From: Geobacteraceae bacterium
Lineage (GTDB): Bacteria; Desulfobacterota; Desulfuromonadia; Geobacterales; Geobacteraceae
Direction: 5' to 3'
Length of the DNA stretch: 64,000 nucleotides
NCBI GenBank assembly: GCA_009773645.1
Contig: WSYB01000025.1
Coordinates: 1 to 64,000, forward strand
Position numbers and translations under genes: made by a program. The notes below the pieces were generated by a model. It ran no database searches, had not been told where the DNA came from, and saw nothing but the letters and a program-made list of their open reading frames with translations. Positions 12,777 to 17,241 of this stretch are shown in pieces (position 1 is the stretch's first letter; each line of letters opens with the position of its first letter).

Positions 12777-14492
12777 CTAGGGAGCGAAACCGCAGGTGCC
12801 AACAGGGACGAAGGAAAAGGCGGCGGGATTGAGAAGATAGACAAATATCCCGGTATTCCCTGGATTGGCCGCCTCGAAGGCGACCTGTGTCGGCCCCTCG
12901 ATCCTGAAGTTGGCCGGGATGTTGGCCGTTGCCCGGTTGTCCAGAACCAGGTTGTTTGCAGTGGTGTTGCCGGTCATTCGCAGGCAGAGCGAGGCGGCTA
13001 AGAGGGTCTGGGCCTGGATCCCGCCGTCGGCCGGGGCCGCATTCAGGACACTGTTGCCGGTGACGCTGGCCGCAAGAGTGCCGCTGGCGTTCACCTGGAT
13101 GCCGGAGCGGGCGATGGCCGCGACGCCTGTGTTGTCCACGATGTTGCCGCTGACCGTAATGGTACCTGCGCCCTCGACGTCGATACCCCGCCGGCCGGCG
13201 TTGGTGCCGATATTGGTCAGCGTGTTGCTGGTAGCGGCGGCCGTGCCGCTGGGGAACAGCACCCGGATACCGGTCTCCAGAATATTGCTCAAGGTGTTGC
13301 CCGTAAGGGCGAAATTCACGCCGGCAGCGGTGGTGACGATATCGATGGCGTTTTCGGGATTGGGACCAAGCAGGTTGCTTATGGTGTTATTGGCTATCGT
13401 GCCGGTTCCACCGGTGGCGCCGGCGAGCAGGATCCCCGCCCTCTGGACATTGCGGATGGTGTTGTCGTGGATATTGAACCCGGTGAGGCCCGTCCCGGAC
13501 ATCCCCCGCATATTGGCCAGTGCCCCTGCACCATCGATGATTACTCCCGCCACTTCGACGCCGCTTGCCAGACCGACGATGGGGAGATTGTTGATGAGAA
13601 CCGTGACGGTATCGGAGATGATCGGCATCGCCGCCGGATTAGCCGCCGTGGAGGCGACCCCGGTGACGGGGAGGAGCGCATTGTTGGGGTCGTTGGGGAG
13701 AACGTCGAACGGCGGCAGGCCCACTCCCTGACCGAGGAGCCTCTGGTTGGTCTTGAGGGTGATCCCGGCGCTCTGGCCGGTGTTGGCGCCGTTGCCGGTG
13801 TGGACGAAGATGATGTCGCCGGGCCGCGACACCGCGGCGGCGGCAGCCAGGGTGGTAAATGGGGTGGTGGATCTCCCGTTGGGAGTCTCTCCAGCCGCGG
13901 GAACAAAGTCGTTCTTCACGAACCAGGCCACCTGGCCGACGGTGATGGTGACGGTCCCCTGGGCGGTCCGGCCGTCGGGGGCCTGGGCGGTGTAGGTAAA
14001 GGTATCGAGGCCGGTAAACGGCACGCCTGCCGCGCTCGGTGGAGGTGGCTCGTAGGTGAAGCCGCCGCCGGCGAGGTCGGTTATCGTAACGGTACCCCCC
14101 AGGACGCTGGGGTTCTGGAAAGTCAGAATACCGCTCGTGCCGACGTCATTGGCGAGCAGGCCGGAGGTTGCGGGGACGGTGATCCGCGAATTGCCCAGCC
14201 AGGCGAAGGCGTCACCGGACACCGTGAATGCGGCCACTGGCGTCGCCGGGGTCGTCGGCGTTGTAGGCGTTGTAGGCGTCGTCGGCGTCGTCGGCGTCGT
14301 TGGTGTTGTCGGCGTAGTCGGGGTCGTCGGCGTCGTCGGCGTAGTCGGGGTCGTCGGCGTCGTTGGAGTGCCATCGCCGGGCTGGGCGGTTTGGCCTGGC
14401 TGGGTGTCACCGCCACCGCCGCAGGCAGCCAGACCGGAAGCGGCGAAGAGCACCAGGCCGATCAGAAGCCATTTTCTCGTTATTGTGGTCAT
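12777..14492 (-). CDS. surface lipoprotein with Thr-Pro linker and right-handed beta-helix
   Basis: 571 residues from ATG 14492 (AGGGAGA upstream). Residues 1-24 are a lipoprotein signal peptide with lipobox LAAC and Gly-rich CGGGG. Residues about 44-85 are a low-complexity (Thr-Pro-Thr)n linker encoded by a 9-bp tandem repeat. A cadherin/Ig-like strand domain (about 88-185) follows, then a parallel beta-helix (about 190-550) with repeated N-x-I/V turns such as NTIRNVQRAGI, NTISNLLG and NTLSNILETGI. Beta-helix proteins bind or cut polysaccharides or act as adhesins; no catalytic site is recognised. It lies next to another large exported protein on the same strand with its own terminator. Confidence 0.85.
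   Translation of the reverse strand: MTTITRKWLLIGLVLFAASGLAACGGGGDTQPGQTAQPGDGTPTTPTTPTTPTTPTTPTTPTTPTTPTTPTTPTTPTTPTTPATPVAAFTVSGDAFAWLGNSRITVPATSGLLANDVGTSGILTFQNPSVLGGTVTITDLAGGGFTYEPPPPSAAGVPFTGLDTFTYTAQAPDGRTAQGTVTITVGQVAWFVKNDFVPAAGETPNGRSTTPFTTLAAAAAVSRPGDIIFVHTGNGANTGQSAGITLKTNQRLLGQGVGLPPFDVLPNDPNNALLPVTGVASTAANPAAMPIISDTVTVLINNLPIVGLASGVEVAGVIIDGAGALANMRGMSGTGLTGFNIHDNTIRNVQRAGILLAGATGGTGTIANNTISNLLGPNPENAIDIVTTAAGVNFALTGNTLSNILETGIRVLFPSGTAAATSNTLTNIGTNAGRRGIDVEGAGTITVSGNIVDNTGVAAIARSGIQVNASGTLAASVTGNSVLNAAPADGGIQAQTLLAASLCLRMTGNTTANNLVLDNRATANIPANFRIEGPTQVAFEAANPGNTGIFVYLLNPAAFSFVPVGTCGFAP
14236..14375 (-). repeat. 9-bp tandem repeat encoding Thr-Pro-Thr
   Basis: More than a dozen near-identical GGCGT(C/T)GT(C/A/T)-type nonamers in tandem. 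They keep the frame whatever the copy number, giving a linker of variable length in the lipoprotein. Confidence 0.85.
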
Positions 14493-14743
14493 CTTTGTTC
14501 TCCCTTTTGTTGGAATTCCTGAAATTCCTTTCGCAAGCACCCCCTTCGATTGCACAAGCACAAACAAATCCTGCTATTATTTATTTGAATACCCTATCCG
14601 CGAGCTTTGTCAAGGCAGGGGCTGATTATATTGTGTGAATCTTTCAAGGCAGAAAAAAGGAGGATTAATTAAGGACGGCCTTCAGGCGAGCTATTATGAT
14701 ACGTTCCATTGTGCAAGTTCACGCCCATGCCGGGCGACAAAAA

Positions 14744-14796: not shown

Positions 14797-17241
14797 CTAC
14801 TGAGTTGTAAAACTCCGGACCTCACTGGTAGCCAAACCCCCCTTACCGTCATCCGCGACAACCTTCCAAAAATAGGTCGTGTTTGCCGTAAGGCCGGTGA
14901 CTGTGGTGCTCAGCTGGTCCGCAGCCGGTGTGGGAGTTGGGGTGCCGCCTCCGCCTCCGCCGCCGCATGCCGTAAAGAGCGCCCCCATGAGCAGGAGGAC
15001 GGGAATGACCAACAGCTTCCGCGAGCGCTTCACACCGCTACCCGCGACAAACCCGAACAGAATGATCCCACCTCCCATGCTTCCCAAGCCGGCCAACATA
15101 ACTCCGGCGGCTGCGGCGGATGCGACATCGACGGTCTGAGCCCCCGCAAAATTCGGATCGGTGCTGTACATGACATGGTACGTTACCGCATCTCCATCGG
15201 GGTCAGCCGACTTTTTCCAGACGAACGTCATCGTCGTGGCGACCCCTGTCTGGCCGTTCGTCGGGGAAACGAGCACGGGGTTTGAGGGAGGATTATTGCC
15301 CGTGCCCGTGGTCGTGGTCGATGTGCTGCCGGTCCCGGACACGCTCACGGTCACGGTCGGCGTTCCGGTAACGTTGCTGGGGATATCGAACGTATCGCTG
15401 GCCGCAGCGCTGGCGGTGGGGGCAAAACGGACCGTCAGCGTGCAGGTGGCAGCCGGCGCCAGCGATGCGCCCGAACAGGTGTTGCCCGTTATGCTGAATG
15501 GAGCGGCCAGCGGATCAGTGCTCGCTATCGTGCCGATGACCAGATTCGCGGTGCCGGTGTTGGTGACGGTAATCGTCGCATCGGCTGAGCCGCTGACCAG
15601 AACGGTGCCGAAAGGAACTGCGTTGTCGTTGTTGGGTGCGATGGAATCCGTTACCAGTATGTTCGGCACCGGTACGGCAGTGCCTGTCCCGCTTACCGCG
15701 AAGGGAACCGTGGGGGTGACCGGATCATTGCTCGGTATGTCGAAGGTGTCCGTAGCTGCACCGGCAGCGGTTGGCGCGAAGCGCGCGGTTGCCGTGCAGC
15801 TTGCCCCTAGCGCAAGCGTCAGGCCCGAACAGTTATTGGCCACAATGCTGAACGGCGCGGCAAGGGGGTCTGTCGCGGCTATCGTGCCAAGAACAAGGGC
15901 GCCGTCGCCCGCATTGGCCAGGGTGATTATGTGATCAACGGTCGCCCCCGTGGTCACGGTGCCGAAATCGAAGGGGGGCGGGAGGGTTACAGTGATTTTC
16001 TGTGGCCTGAACTCGAACGCGCCTATGTCGCAGGTTGCCACACCGTCAAGGGGAATTTTGCCGTCCACGGGACGTGCAACCCCCCGCGCGTCCGTGGTGG
16101 GACAGCCTGTTGCCGCGCCCGCATCGATGGCCGGGCTTCCCGCGGGTAGAGCACGGGTTTGAAGAACTCCCCCGTTAAGGGCGAGCGCGACGAGCAGAGG
16201 ATCGGTATTGGCCAGGTCGCCCGGGCCGGCAAAGAGGCAGGTATTGCCGTTGTCGATGTTGTTTCCCTGTGACGTTATAGTGCCGCCGCAGTTGGCGGGC
16301 GCATTGCCCGAGATGATCGTGTTTCTGGCCGTTATTGATACTGCAGCGTTATTTCGAATGCCGCCGATGGCAGCTACCCCTGCAGTGGAGGTATTGGCGC
16401 TTATCGTAACATTTGTGAGAGTAACGGTACCGCGGGCATCGATGCCCGCGCCCTGTGTTGTCGAGGTATTGCCGCTTATCGTGATGTTCGTGAGCGTTAT
16501 CGTGCCGTTGTTTTGGATCCCGCCGCCGGTAGTGTTGCCGCTCACCTCGCCGATGTTCCAGGTAAGCACCCCGTCCGCTCCGTTGTTGACGCCGCCGCCG
16601 GGGCCGTCATTGTTCGTCACCGCGACCGTGTTCATGGTGAGGGTACCGGAGTTGTCCACTCCGCTGGCTCCAGCATTAGCACCTAAGGCCTTGCAGGCCG
16701 TAACGATAACGTTGTTCAGCGTAACCGATGTACCAATGGCAGTATTGCCGACATGAATGCCACCGCCATGCCCGAGGTTGGGATCCCCGTTTCCGTTGCG
16801 GATGGTTACGCCCGAAATGGTCACATTTGCGCCCACTCCACCAACCACGATCGTCTCAAACACCCCGTCTATAGCACCGCCGTCGATAATCGTCGTGGCC
16901 GCGCCAGCGCCGCTGATGGTAAGCGCTCCTCCGGGGCCTCTGATATCGAGGTCGCCGGTTGCAGACGCATCTTCATTTAGTCCGGGAATGGCCAGTGTGT
17001 AGGTTCCCACGGGGAGGACAATGGTGTCGGCAACACCCACAGATGCGTTCGCCGCCTGGATGGCCGAGCGCAGCGTGCACTGGCCGATCCCGCTCACGCA
17101 ATTGGCTTGCAGGTCGGCCACGTCGGCCGTGCTGTTGACCGTGAAAGTCGCGGCTTGGCCAAAGCCAGGAACAAAAACAAGAAGACCTAGGCTGAGCAAG
17201 CCCAAAGCGCCTGAACGAGAAAAGACTTTTAGCGGATTCAT
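14797..17241 (-). CDS. large exported choice-of-anchor Q/D protein with an FN3 domain interrupted by a lipobox-like hydrophobic segment
   Basis: 814 residues. A signal peptide (1-31) ends GFGQA. Then come a CSLREAI-type motif (CTLRSAIQAAN), a beta-helix-like region, a choice-of-anchor Q closing segment (SPAIDAGAATGCPTTDARG, CDIGAFEF, about 365-412), two choice-of-anchor D/ASPM-Hydin-like repeats (about 415-520 and 530-645) and an FN3 domain from about 660. That FN3 domain is split: between its halves lie residues 713-774, containing a glycine-rich hydrophobic stretch, the basic patch VKRSRK, a second hydrophobic stretch LLVIPVLLLMGALFTAC and seven glycines, like a lipoprotein signal peptide with Cys759. 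FN3 resumes at DQLSTTVTGLTANTTYFWKV. It is probably displayed at the surface and anchored through this internal segment; that role is inferred. Confidence 0.85.
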   Translation of the reverse strand: MNPLKVFSRSGALGLLSLGLLVFVPGFGQAATFTVNSTADVADLQANCVSGIGQCTLRSAIQAANASVGVADTIVLPVGTYTLAIPGLNEDASATGDLDIRGPGGALTISGAGAATTIIDGGAIDGVFETIVVGGVGANVTISGVTIRNGNGDPNLGHGGGIHVGNTAIGTSVTLNNVIVTACKALGANAGASGVDNSGTLTMNTVAVTNNDGPGGGVNNGADGVLTWNIGEVSGNTTGGGIQNNGTITLTNITISGNTSTTQGAGIDARGTVTLTNVTISANTSTAGVAAIGGIRNNAAVSITARNTIISGNAPANCGGTITSQGNNIDNGNTCLFAGPGDLANTDPLLVALALNGGVLQTRALPAGSPAIDAGAATGCPTTDARGVARPVDGKIPLDGVATCDIGAFEFRPQKITVTLPPPFDFGTVTTGATVDHIITLANAGDGALVLGTIAATDPLAAPFSIVANNCSGLTLALGASCTATARFAPTAAGAATDTFDIPSNDPVTPTVPFAVSGTGTAVPVPNILVTDSIAPNNDNAVPFGTVLVSGSADATITVTNTGTANLVIGTIASTDPLAAPFSITGNTCSGASLAPAATCTLTVRFAPTASAAASDTFDIPSNVTGTPTVTVSVSGTGSTSTTTTGTGNNPPSNPVLVSPTNGQTGVATTMTFVWKKSADPDGDAVTYHVMYSTDPNFAGAQTVDVASAAAAGVMLAGLGSMGGGIILFGFVAGSGVKRSRKLLVIPVLLLMGALFTACGGGGGGGTPTPTPAADQLSTTVTGLTANTTYFWKVVADDGKGGLATSEVRSFTTQ

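Follow-up and report, generated by a model that had tools for sequence, protein, structure and literature searches.

An FN3 domain split by a lipoprotein-type signal: a candidate C-terminal membrane anchor of exported bacterial proteins

The known lipid anchors of bacterial proteins consist of an N-terminal cysteine or of C-terminal sorting tails. In this study, we describe a candidate anchoring module, found in a 64,000-nucleotide stretch of a Geobacteraceae bacterium (assembly GCA_009773645.1, contig WSYB01000025.1, positions 1 to 64,000; hereafter the window). A single open reading frame on the minus strand, at 14797-17241, encodes a protein of 814 residues, and residues 712-776 interrupt its C-terminal FN3 domain between strands C' and E. 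The insert holds two hydrophobic segments joined by a basic loop and ends in a cysteine and a glycine-rich linker (Table 1). Its lipoprotein-type signal lies at residues 738-759, about 740 residues from the protein start. We regard the module as virtually certain to be real, and we think it probable that it serves as a C-terminal membrane anchor, in which the C'-E loop of an FN3 domain carries two hydrophobic segments, the second being a lipoprotein signal with its cysteine, along the course proposed below.

An interrupted FN3 domain in the window protein

A first-pass annotation of the DNA had drawn attention to positions 14965-15103 (residues 713-759), and the hydrophobic stretches, VKRSRK, Cys759 and the seven glycines that it described are all present. 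The normal signal peptide that it placed at residue 1 agrees with our own reading, residues 1-30 being signal-like by a simple hydropathy rule.

Table 1. Positions in the window of the module's parts and of the other features of the carrier protein
Feature	Position	Strand	Evidence
FN3 first half (strands A, B, C, C'), residues 650-712	15106..15294	-	AlphaFold2 model, structure matches, alignments; strand letters are our own assignment
Motif LAGLG ([YFLWH]A[GASD]x(1,2)[GS]), residues 716-720, directly before segment 1	15082..15096	-	sequence; motif statistics
Hydrophobic segment 1, SMGGGIILFGFVAGSGV, residues 721-737; putative stop-transfer or CTERM-like helix	15031..15081	-	sequence, alignment, model
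Basic loop KRSRK, residues 738-742	15016..15030	-	sequence; K/R counts across copies
Hydrophobic segment 2, LLVIPVLLLMGALFTA, residues 743-758; putative internal lipoprotein-signal h- and c-region	14968..15015	-	sequence, alignment, model
Lipobox cysteine, Cys759	14965..14967	-	FTAC in window; conservation across copies
Gly7 and Thr-Pro linker, residues 760-776 (seven G at 760-766)	14914..14964	-	sequence
FN3 second half (strands E, F, G) up to C-terminus, residues 777-814	14800..14913	-	Pfam, AlphaFold2 model, structure matches
Gene of the 814-residue exported module carrier	14797..17241	-	open reading frame; NCBIfam CSLREA, choice-of-anchor Q and choice-of-anchor D domains
Putative N-terminal signal peptide, residues 1-30	17152..17241	-	own reading; signal-like by simple hydropathy rule; no lipobox
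CSLREA N-terminal domain, residues 33-65	17047..17145	-	NCBIfam TIGR04214, 27 bits, cut-off 25
Choice-of-anchor Q domain, residues 347-411	16009..16203	-	NCBIfam NF041518, 81.1 bits, cut-off 25
Choice-of-anchor D domain, best of two stretches, residues 419-507	15721..15987	-	NCBIfam NF012200, 100.9 bits, cut-off 45
Second ASH / choice-of-anchor D-like domain, residues 538-628	15358..15630	-	Pfam ASH, 55.7 bits, two stretches

The annotation had further held that the FN3 domain resumes after the segment, and several lines of evidence agree with it. Two profile matches, both below the Pfam cut-offs, cover the region: Pur_ac_phosph_N (residues 666-813) spans the insert, and fn3 (residues 776-810) follows it. 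An AlphaFold2 model built on a 19-row alignment of relatives (A2, described below) reached a mean predicted local distance difference test score (pLDDT) of 77.8 and a predicted template modelling score of 0.61. In this model the strands flanking the insert, A, B, C and C' on one side and E, F and G on the other, lie in one sandwich, so that the two halves fold together around the hairpin. Taken in ten-residue blocks, the pLDDT of the FN3 halves is 88-98, except for 75 at the first junction; the hairpin is modelled as two helices (fragment residues 67-80 and 93-105) with a pLDDT of 48-61. Compared with solved structures by VIA-align, the model was closest to FN3 domains (Z up to 10.6, root-mean-square deviation 2.5, 97 aligned residues), the best 20 rows having Z of 10.1-10.6 and deviations of 1.9-2.6. 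A Foldseek search of the model returned nothing at an E-value of 0.001 or better; its top match was an FN3 domain (E 1.2e-3), with antibody and PD-1 chains further down. As modelled, the window domain is thus predicted to be a seven-strand FN3 sandwich with the insert in its C'-E loop.

Relatives of the module and their conservation

Residues 652-814, used as a query against 141 genomes of the order, gave a nearly full-length match in six: the window itself, an orthologue of 69% identity (L054, from an independent assembly and on the same contig as L089), and four copies on a CxxCH-containing protein (L055-L058) that is unrelated to the window protein. The alignment of these six (A1) matched 37 of the 141 genomes at E<=0.001, at full length in the six only and as FN3 pieces in the others, and a profile search of the genome collection with it gave at least 71 loci. 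Thirty-one of these loci were read and 19 carry the module (one, L104, frameshifted); a later scan of all loci added none, the remainder being FN3 repeats or pieces. Nitrospirae, Troglogloeales, Thermodesulfovibrio, a gammaproteobacterium, a spirochaete, Desulfuromonadaceae and two Bacteroidetes are among the 19 carriers. Their alignment (A2) was searched in 295 genomes of the phylum of G536, a Thermodesulfovibrio species and the source of L099, which phylum we take to be Nitrospirota. It matched 28 genomes, at up to seven places per genome; four of the 28 (G589, G604, G616, G745) hold partial or broken modules only, and partial matches in G604, G745, G589, G616 and G678:C5, together with two in G791, were left uncounted.

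From these matches 55 distinct full-length modules, including the window copy, were assembled into alignment A3, entry requiring an A2-model match that starts at position 25 or before, ends at 150 or after and scores above 35 bits; duplicates were removed and seven repeat loci left out. A3 in turn matched 15 of 395 genomes of the window's phylum, three of them through partial matches only. The search for the same split-FN3 module in other proteins, which the first-pass annotation had suggested, yielded 92 distinct copies from several phyla, the window's included: the 55 of A3, 26 hold-outs and 11 from the window's phylum. None was found in the viral contigs searched.

The module is shared by carriers that otherwise have little in common. 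Their parts N-terminal to it are unrelated to one another: NCBIfam finds choice-of-anchor D, choice-of-anchor U and thrombospondin-like domains there, some below cut-offs, and by our own reading other carriers are beta-helix, SGNH-hydrolase-like, FG-GAP-like or propeller-like. In all 81 copies of A3 and the hold-outs the module match ends 0-10 residues before the stop. The proposal of an internal sorting or anchoring module that is not C-terminal therefore stands in part: the module is internal to an FN3 domain and bears a lipoprotein-type signal, but it sits at the C-terminus of its carriers. By the hydropathy rule, 32 of the 35 carriers with an upstream stop in view have a signal-like N-terminus, as would be expected if both FN3 halves end outside.

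The lipobox cysteine is present in 90 of the 92 modules (53/55 in A3, 26/26 hold-outs and 11/11 copies from the window's phylum, the last read by eye, three of them with a PGC box). Within A3, the position before the cysteine (-1) is S in 36 and A in 14 copies, position -3 is L in 32, and position +2 is occupied by G in 38, by S in 9 and by D in 1. The loop contains at least two K/R residues in 54 of the 55 and a mean of 0.09 acidic residues; segments 1 and 2 have mean Kyte-Doolittle hydropathies of 1.88 and 2.61, respectively. The motif [YFLWH]A[GASD]x(1,2)[GS] precedes segment 1 in 20 of the 26 hold-outs, as compared to 2.9 expected on shuffling each stretch, although the hold-outs are not independent of the set, whose genomes supplied them; the motif was derived from A3, so its count of 39/55 there is circular. 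Among the FN3 core residues in A3, W26 and W143 are invariant and Y39 and Y141 nearly so.

Two comparisons concern the insert itself. The CxxCH proteins L055 and L065 are identical at 342 of 457 aligned residues (75%), and the FN3 loop that bears a 67-residue insert in L055 is uninterrupted in L065, which makes the pair a natural empty-site control; L067 and L068 likewise have no hairpin. The cysteine is missing from L055, as from one other copy, and this protein may be losing the lipid or may not need it; by our own reading it has LATHAGE at the cysteine's place, which could be a signal-peptidase-I-like site. Between the window copy and its orthologue, nonsynonymous (dN) and synonymous (dS) divergence by the Nei-Gojobori method is 0.31 and 0.97 over the hairpin and glycines (54 codons), and 0.14 and 1.0 over the FN3 flanks (95 codons). 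Judged from these codon comparisons, the hairpin is constrained, but less than its flanks.

The relatives also dispose of one alternative, that an assembly error or a chance fusion placed a lipoprotein start inside an FN3 gene. The odd look of the arrangement invites that explanation, and one contig outside the window (L217) does look chimeric by our own reading. The 69%-identical orthologue comes from an independent assembly and has the conserved cysteine, and the other copies share the same plan; the relatives thus refute the explanation, to which we give practically no credence. Neither of the two outcomes that the first-pass annotation had named as fatal, an assembly error or loss of the cysteine in homologues, occurred.

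Several individual loci deserve mention. L232 (G726:C52) and L233 (G828:C19) hold four and three module genes in tandem, like an expanding surface-protein cluster. In two Bacteroidetes loci (L103:425-886 and L105:4498-4959) the module is found on a protein that we read as C69-peptidase-like, and these modules are among the most divergent that still have the cysteine. No candidate was accepted for a C-half encoded alone, that is, for natural split genes: contig ends truncate two half modules in G791, the frame of L216 has 78 residues, and L217 looks chimeric, an acyl-CoA-synthetase-like frame (own reading; L217:721-1695, minus strand) running straight into a module tail on what is probably a chimeric contig.

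Comparison with named anchoring systems

The closest named kind of tail is NCBIfam NF058595 (invert_tail, 'lipo-invert putative C-terminal anchoring domain'), which we compared by name and scores alone. It matches 47 of the 55 modules at E<=0.01, and in the window its profile positions 23-102 align with segment 1, the loop, segment 2 and the cysteine. With 24.5 bits for the whole protein and 28.6-29.6 bits for the segment, the window copy stays below the 37-bit cut-off and is a divergent variant, not a formal member. In a set of 30 genomes, the family matched 16 at E<=1e-5 and reached 37 bits or more at three places, one genome each (G798:C37, G790:C32 and G728:C59, with 42.8, 37.7 and 37.2 bits), all three of which are split-FN3 modules. 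Weak scores mean little by themselves, since 14 of 14 control genomes match at E<=1 and 11 of 14 at 0.01. Low scores are useless as a genome marker, 47 of 48 same-family genomes matching at 0.01 alongside those 11 controls; among weak matches, those running through segment 1 carry weight. At E<=1e-8 there was no match in the 395 phylum genomes or the controls, which does not show absence. NCBI curators have thus recognised this sort of tail and, to go by its name, guessed an anchoring role; as far as our searches show, what we add is the anatomy that splits an FN3 domain, the motif, the relatives without the insert and the idea of anchoring through a half domain. In open-licence PubMed Central (PMC) no paper was found by the name 'lipo-invert', and, by title, none of the matches listed on CTERM with lipobox or on C-terminal anchors was about the module, and none on fragment complementation with FN3 was about bacterial anchoring.

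With type II lipoproteins, processed by Lgt and LspA, the module shares a basic n-region, a hydrophobic h-region and a lipobox of the L-x-[SA]-C type, often followed by a Gly/Ser-rich linker. Unlike theirs, its signal is internal, being preceded by an N-terminal part that is exported and by a first hydrophobic segment.

The first-pass annotation had likened the logic of the segment to MYXO-CTERM sorting, and the two may work somewhat alike: with MYXO-CTERM tails and the myxosortase MrtX the module shares a motif, a hydrophobic helix, a basic cluster and a lipidatable cysteine. The likeness fails in layout, and the NCBI 'lipo-invert' tail is nearer. In MYXO-CTERM proteins the cysteine precedes the final transmembrane helix and the basic cluster ends the protein, and an internal case, MXAN_5598, is also described there (PMC11980579). 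The module's cysteine instead comes after the second helix and is followed by a half domain, the protein ending in FN3 strand G; the MYXO-CTERM order of cysteine motif, transmembrane helix and Arg-rich C-terminus does not occur in the window protein. GlyGly-CTERM and PEP-CTERM tails are tripartite (PMC3237569), and segment 1 with the basic loop looks alike; unlike the GlyGly-CTERM substrates of rhombosortase, however, the window protein ends in FN3 strands, with no terminal motif, helix and basic tail. At E<=1, a level at which HMMER filters drop many weak matches, NCBIfam gave the window protein no match to a CTERM model, MYXO-CTERM and GlyGly-CTERM included; across the 55 modules there was one JDVT-CTERM match (0.0035) and one to a MYXO-CTERM-anchored family (0.0018).

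A split domain of similar construction is known from eukaryotes. The FnIII-2 domain of the insulin receptor stays one folded domain after cleavage. It is interrupted by an insert that holds a furin site (PMC3747439, PMC7039211). The insulin and IGF-1 receptor domain shares with the module, as we propose it to work, an insert with a processing site and halves that end on two chains, but it differs in being eukaryotic, cut by furin, devoid of lipid and membrane hairpin, and further secured by disulphide links between the chains. We offer the likeness as an analogy and claim no kinship.

A proposed course of anchoring and its alternatives

From the observed anatomy, conservation and recurrence of the module, its insert-free relatives and the predicted FN3 fold, we infer a course that covers its topology, lipidation, two cuts, half-domain pairing and destination. 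The N-terminal signal peptide would export the protein via Sec, placing the first FN3 half outside. Segment 1 (residues 721-737) would halt transfer, KRSRK being kept in the cytoplasm by the positive-inside rule, and segment 2 (residues 743-758) would cross back, the FN3 halves meeting on the outer face to fold as one domain. With both halves outside, the domain could fold whether or not anything is cut. Lgt would lipidate Cys759 and LspA would cut before it; an LspA cut normally follows Lgt modification. Residues 759-814 (56 residues) would then be a small lipoprotein held in the FN3 sandwich, and through it the large N-terminal part would be anchored by its C-end without a covalent bond. Segment 1, preceded by the motif [YFL]A[GD]xG, might also be cut, by a further protease; after this second cut, Lol or another sorter could carry the pair to the outer membrane.

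A cysteine so nearly invariant, preceded by S or A and in most copies followed by G or S, is difficult to account for without Lgt modification. We therefore consider lipidation of Cys759 likely, and the LspA cut probable. Alternatively, the two segments could form a permanent inner-membrane plug for the FN3 domain, the cysteine perhaps lipidated and the chain left whole. Such a hairpin fits the topology with no cut at all, and it would sit well with the two modules that have a hairpin and no cysteine and with a partner protease that did not turn up; yet a plain hairpin needs no lipobox, and all but two of the 92 copies have the cysteine; among the 55 of A3 it is preceded by S or A in 50, and position +2 is G or S in 47. 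We find the uncut hairpin improbable.

An intermediate course would have a single cut, by LspA at Cys759, segment 1 staying whole to hold the large part in the inner membrane, onto which part the lipidated half would be clamped. Because Lgt and LspA are enzymes of general function, no special partner would be needed, which suits the failure to find one. Against this, G or S at +2 (47 of 55, with D in one) pulls in the other direction, because the E. coli +2 rule has these residues favouring the outer membrane, and the [YFL]A[GD]xG motif that recurs ahead of segment 1 resembles a recognition site. These two features, the motif and a +2 residue that does not favour inner-membrane retention, are what suggest a cut in segment 1, which we nevertheless hold to be somewhat doubtful, while a single LspA cut seems to us a rather improbable outcome. 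The fullest form of the proposal is a two-cut 'inverted lipoprotein' system across phyla, in which an intramembrane protease cuts segment 1 and LspA segment 2, the hairpin is lost, and strand complementation with a lipidated FN3 half of about 56 residues is all that holds the large protein at its C-end; we put it forward tentatively and rate it as unlikely.

The same anatomy could serve release, the cuts parting the halves so that the large part is shed and the small lipoprotein left behind. However, core residues are conserved in both FN3 halves, which the model predicts to fold into a single domain. We lean towards the halves staying together and deem a release device very improbable.

A partner for the cut in segment 1 was sought among intramembrane proteases, whose co-occurrence the first-pass annotation had anticipated; the searches lent this no support. 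An exosortase is found in 16 of the 28 module genomes and in 106 of 267 others (p=0.105); 12 of the 28 have no exosortase match, though some may be incomplete and 4 of the 28 hold partial modules only. CPBP proteins occur in 18 of the 28 and in 13 of the first 28 module-free genomes of the draw (p=0.28). Recurrent neighbours at 28 module loci, which were not annotated one by one, formed three clusters of 3-5 proteins, those shown having 0-2 predicted transmembrane segments. In G536 an exosortase gene (L235:627-1475) stands on a contig with three modules, and the same contig holds two proteins that we read as PEP-CTERM-like (L234:3772-5583). Exosortase was set aside as the partner: it is near modules in G536, but PEP-CTERM proteins are there too and its co-occurrence is not significant.

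A number of points weigh against the proposed anchor. Lipobox signals are normally N-terminal, and no paper on an internal lipobox was found in open-licence PMC, nor any published experiment on a module carrier. The hairpin part of the AlphaFold2 model is of low confidence, and the hairpin evolves faster than the FN3 flanks. L055 and L057 (2/92) retain the hairpin with the cysteine absent, so that a hairpin can exist without lipidation, and copies of this kind may be under-sampled, because the model that picked the copies includes the cysteine column. The carrier at L098 also has a convincing N-terminal lipobox and would need no second lipid (another, flagged by the hydropathy scan at L239, we read as false). 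Neither exosortase nor CPBP significantly tracks the module, rhomboid families and rhombosortase not having been searched, and the neighbours of the 28 loci (239 frames) include no recurring protease or recurrent polytopic protein.

If the proposal is true, an anchor formed at the C-end by a lipoprotein signal within a split domain would link the lipoprotein pathway with that of the CTERM tails, the module would be a natural split-FN3 system, and the retention of a set of exported proteins in Nitrospirota and Geobacter-like bacteria would be explained.

The carrier's neighbouring gene in the window, 12777-14567 on the minus strand, is that of an ordinary N-terminal lipoprotein (..LAACGGGG) that has a beta-helix domain; normal lipoprotein signals thus occur in the window too. 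The DNA for its Thr-Pro linker is a tandem repeat at 14239-14363, with a unit of 9 bases present in about 14 copies.

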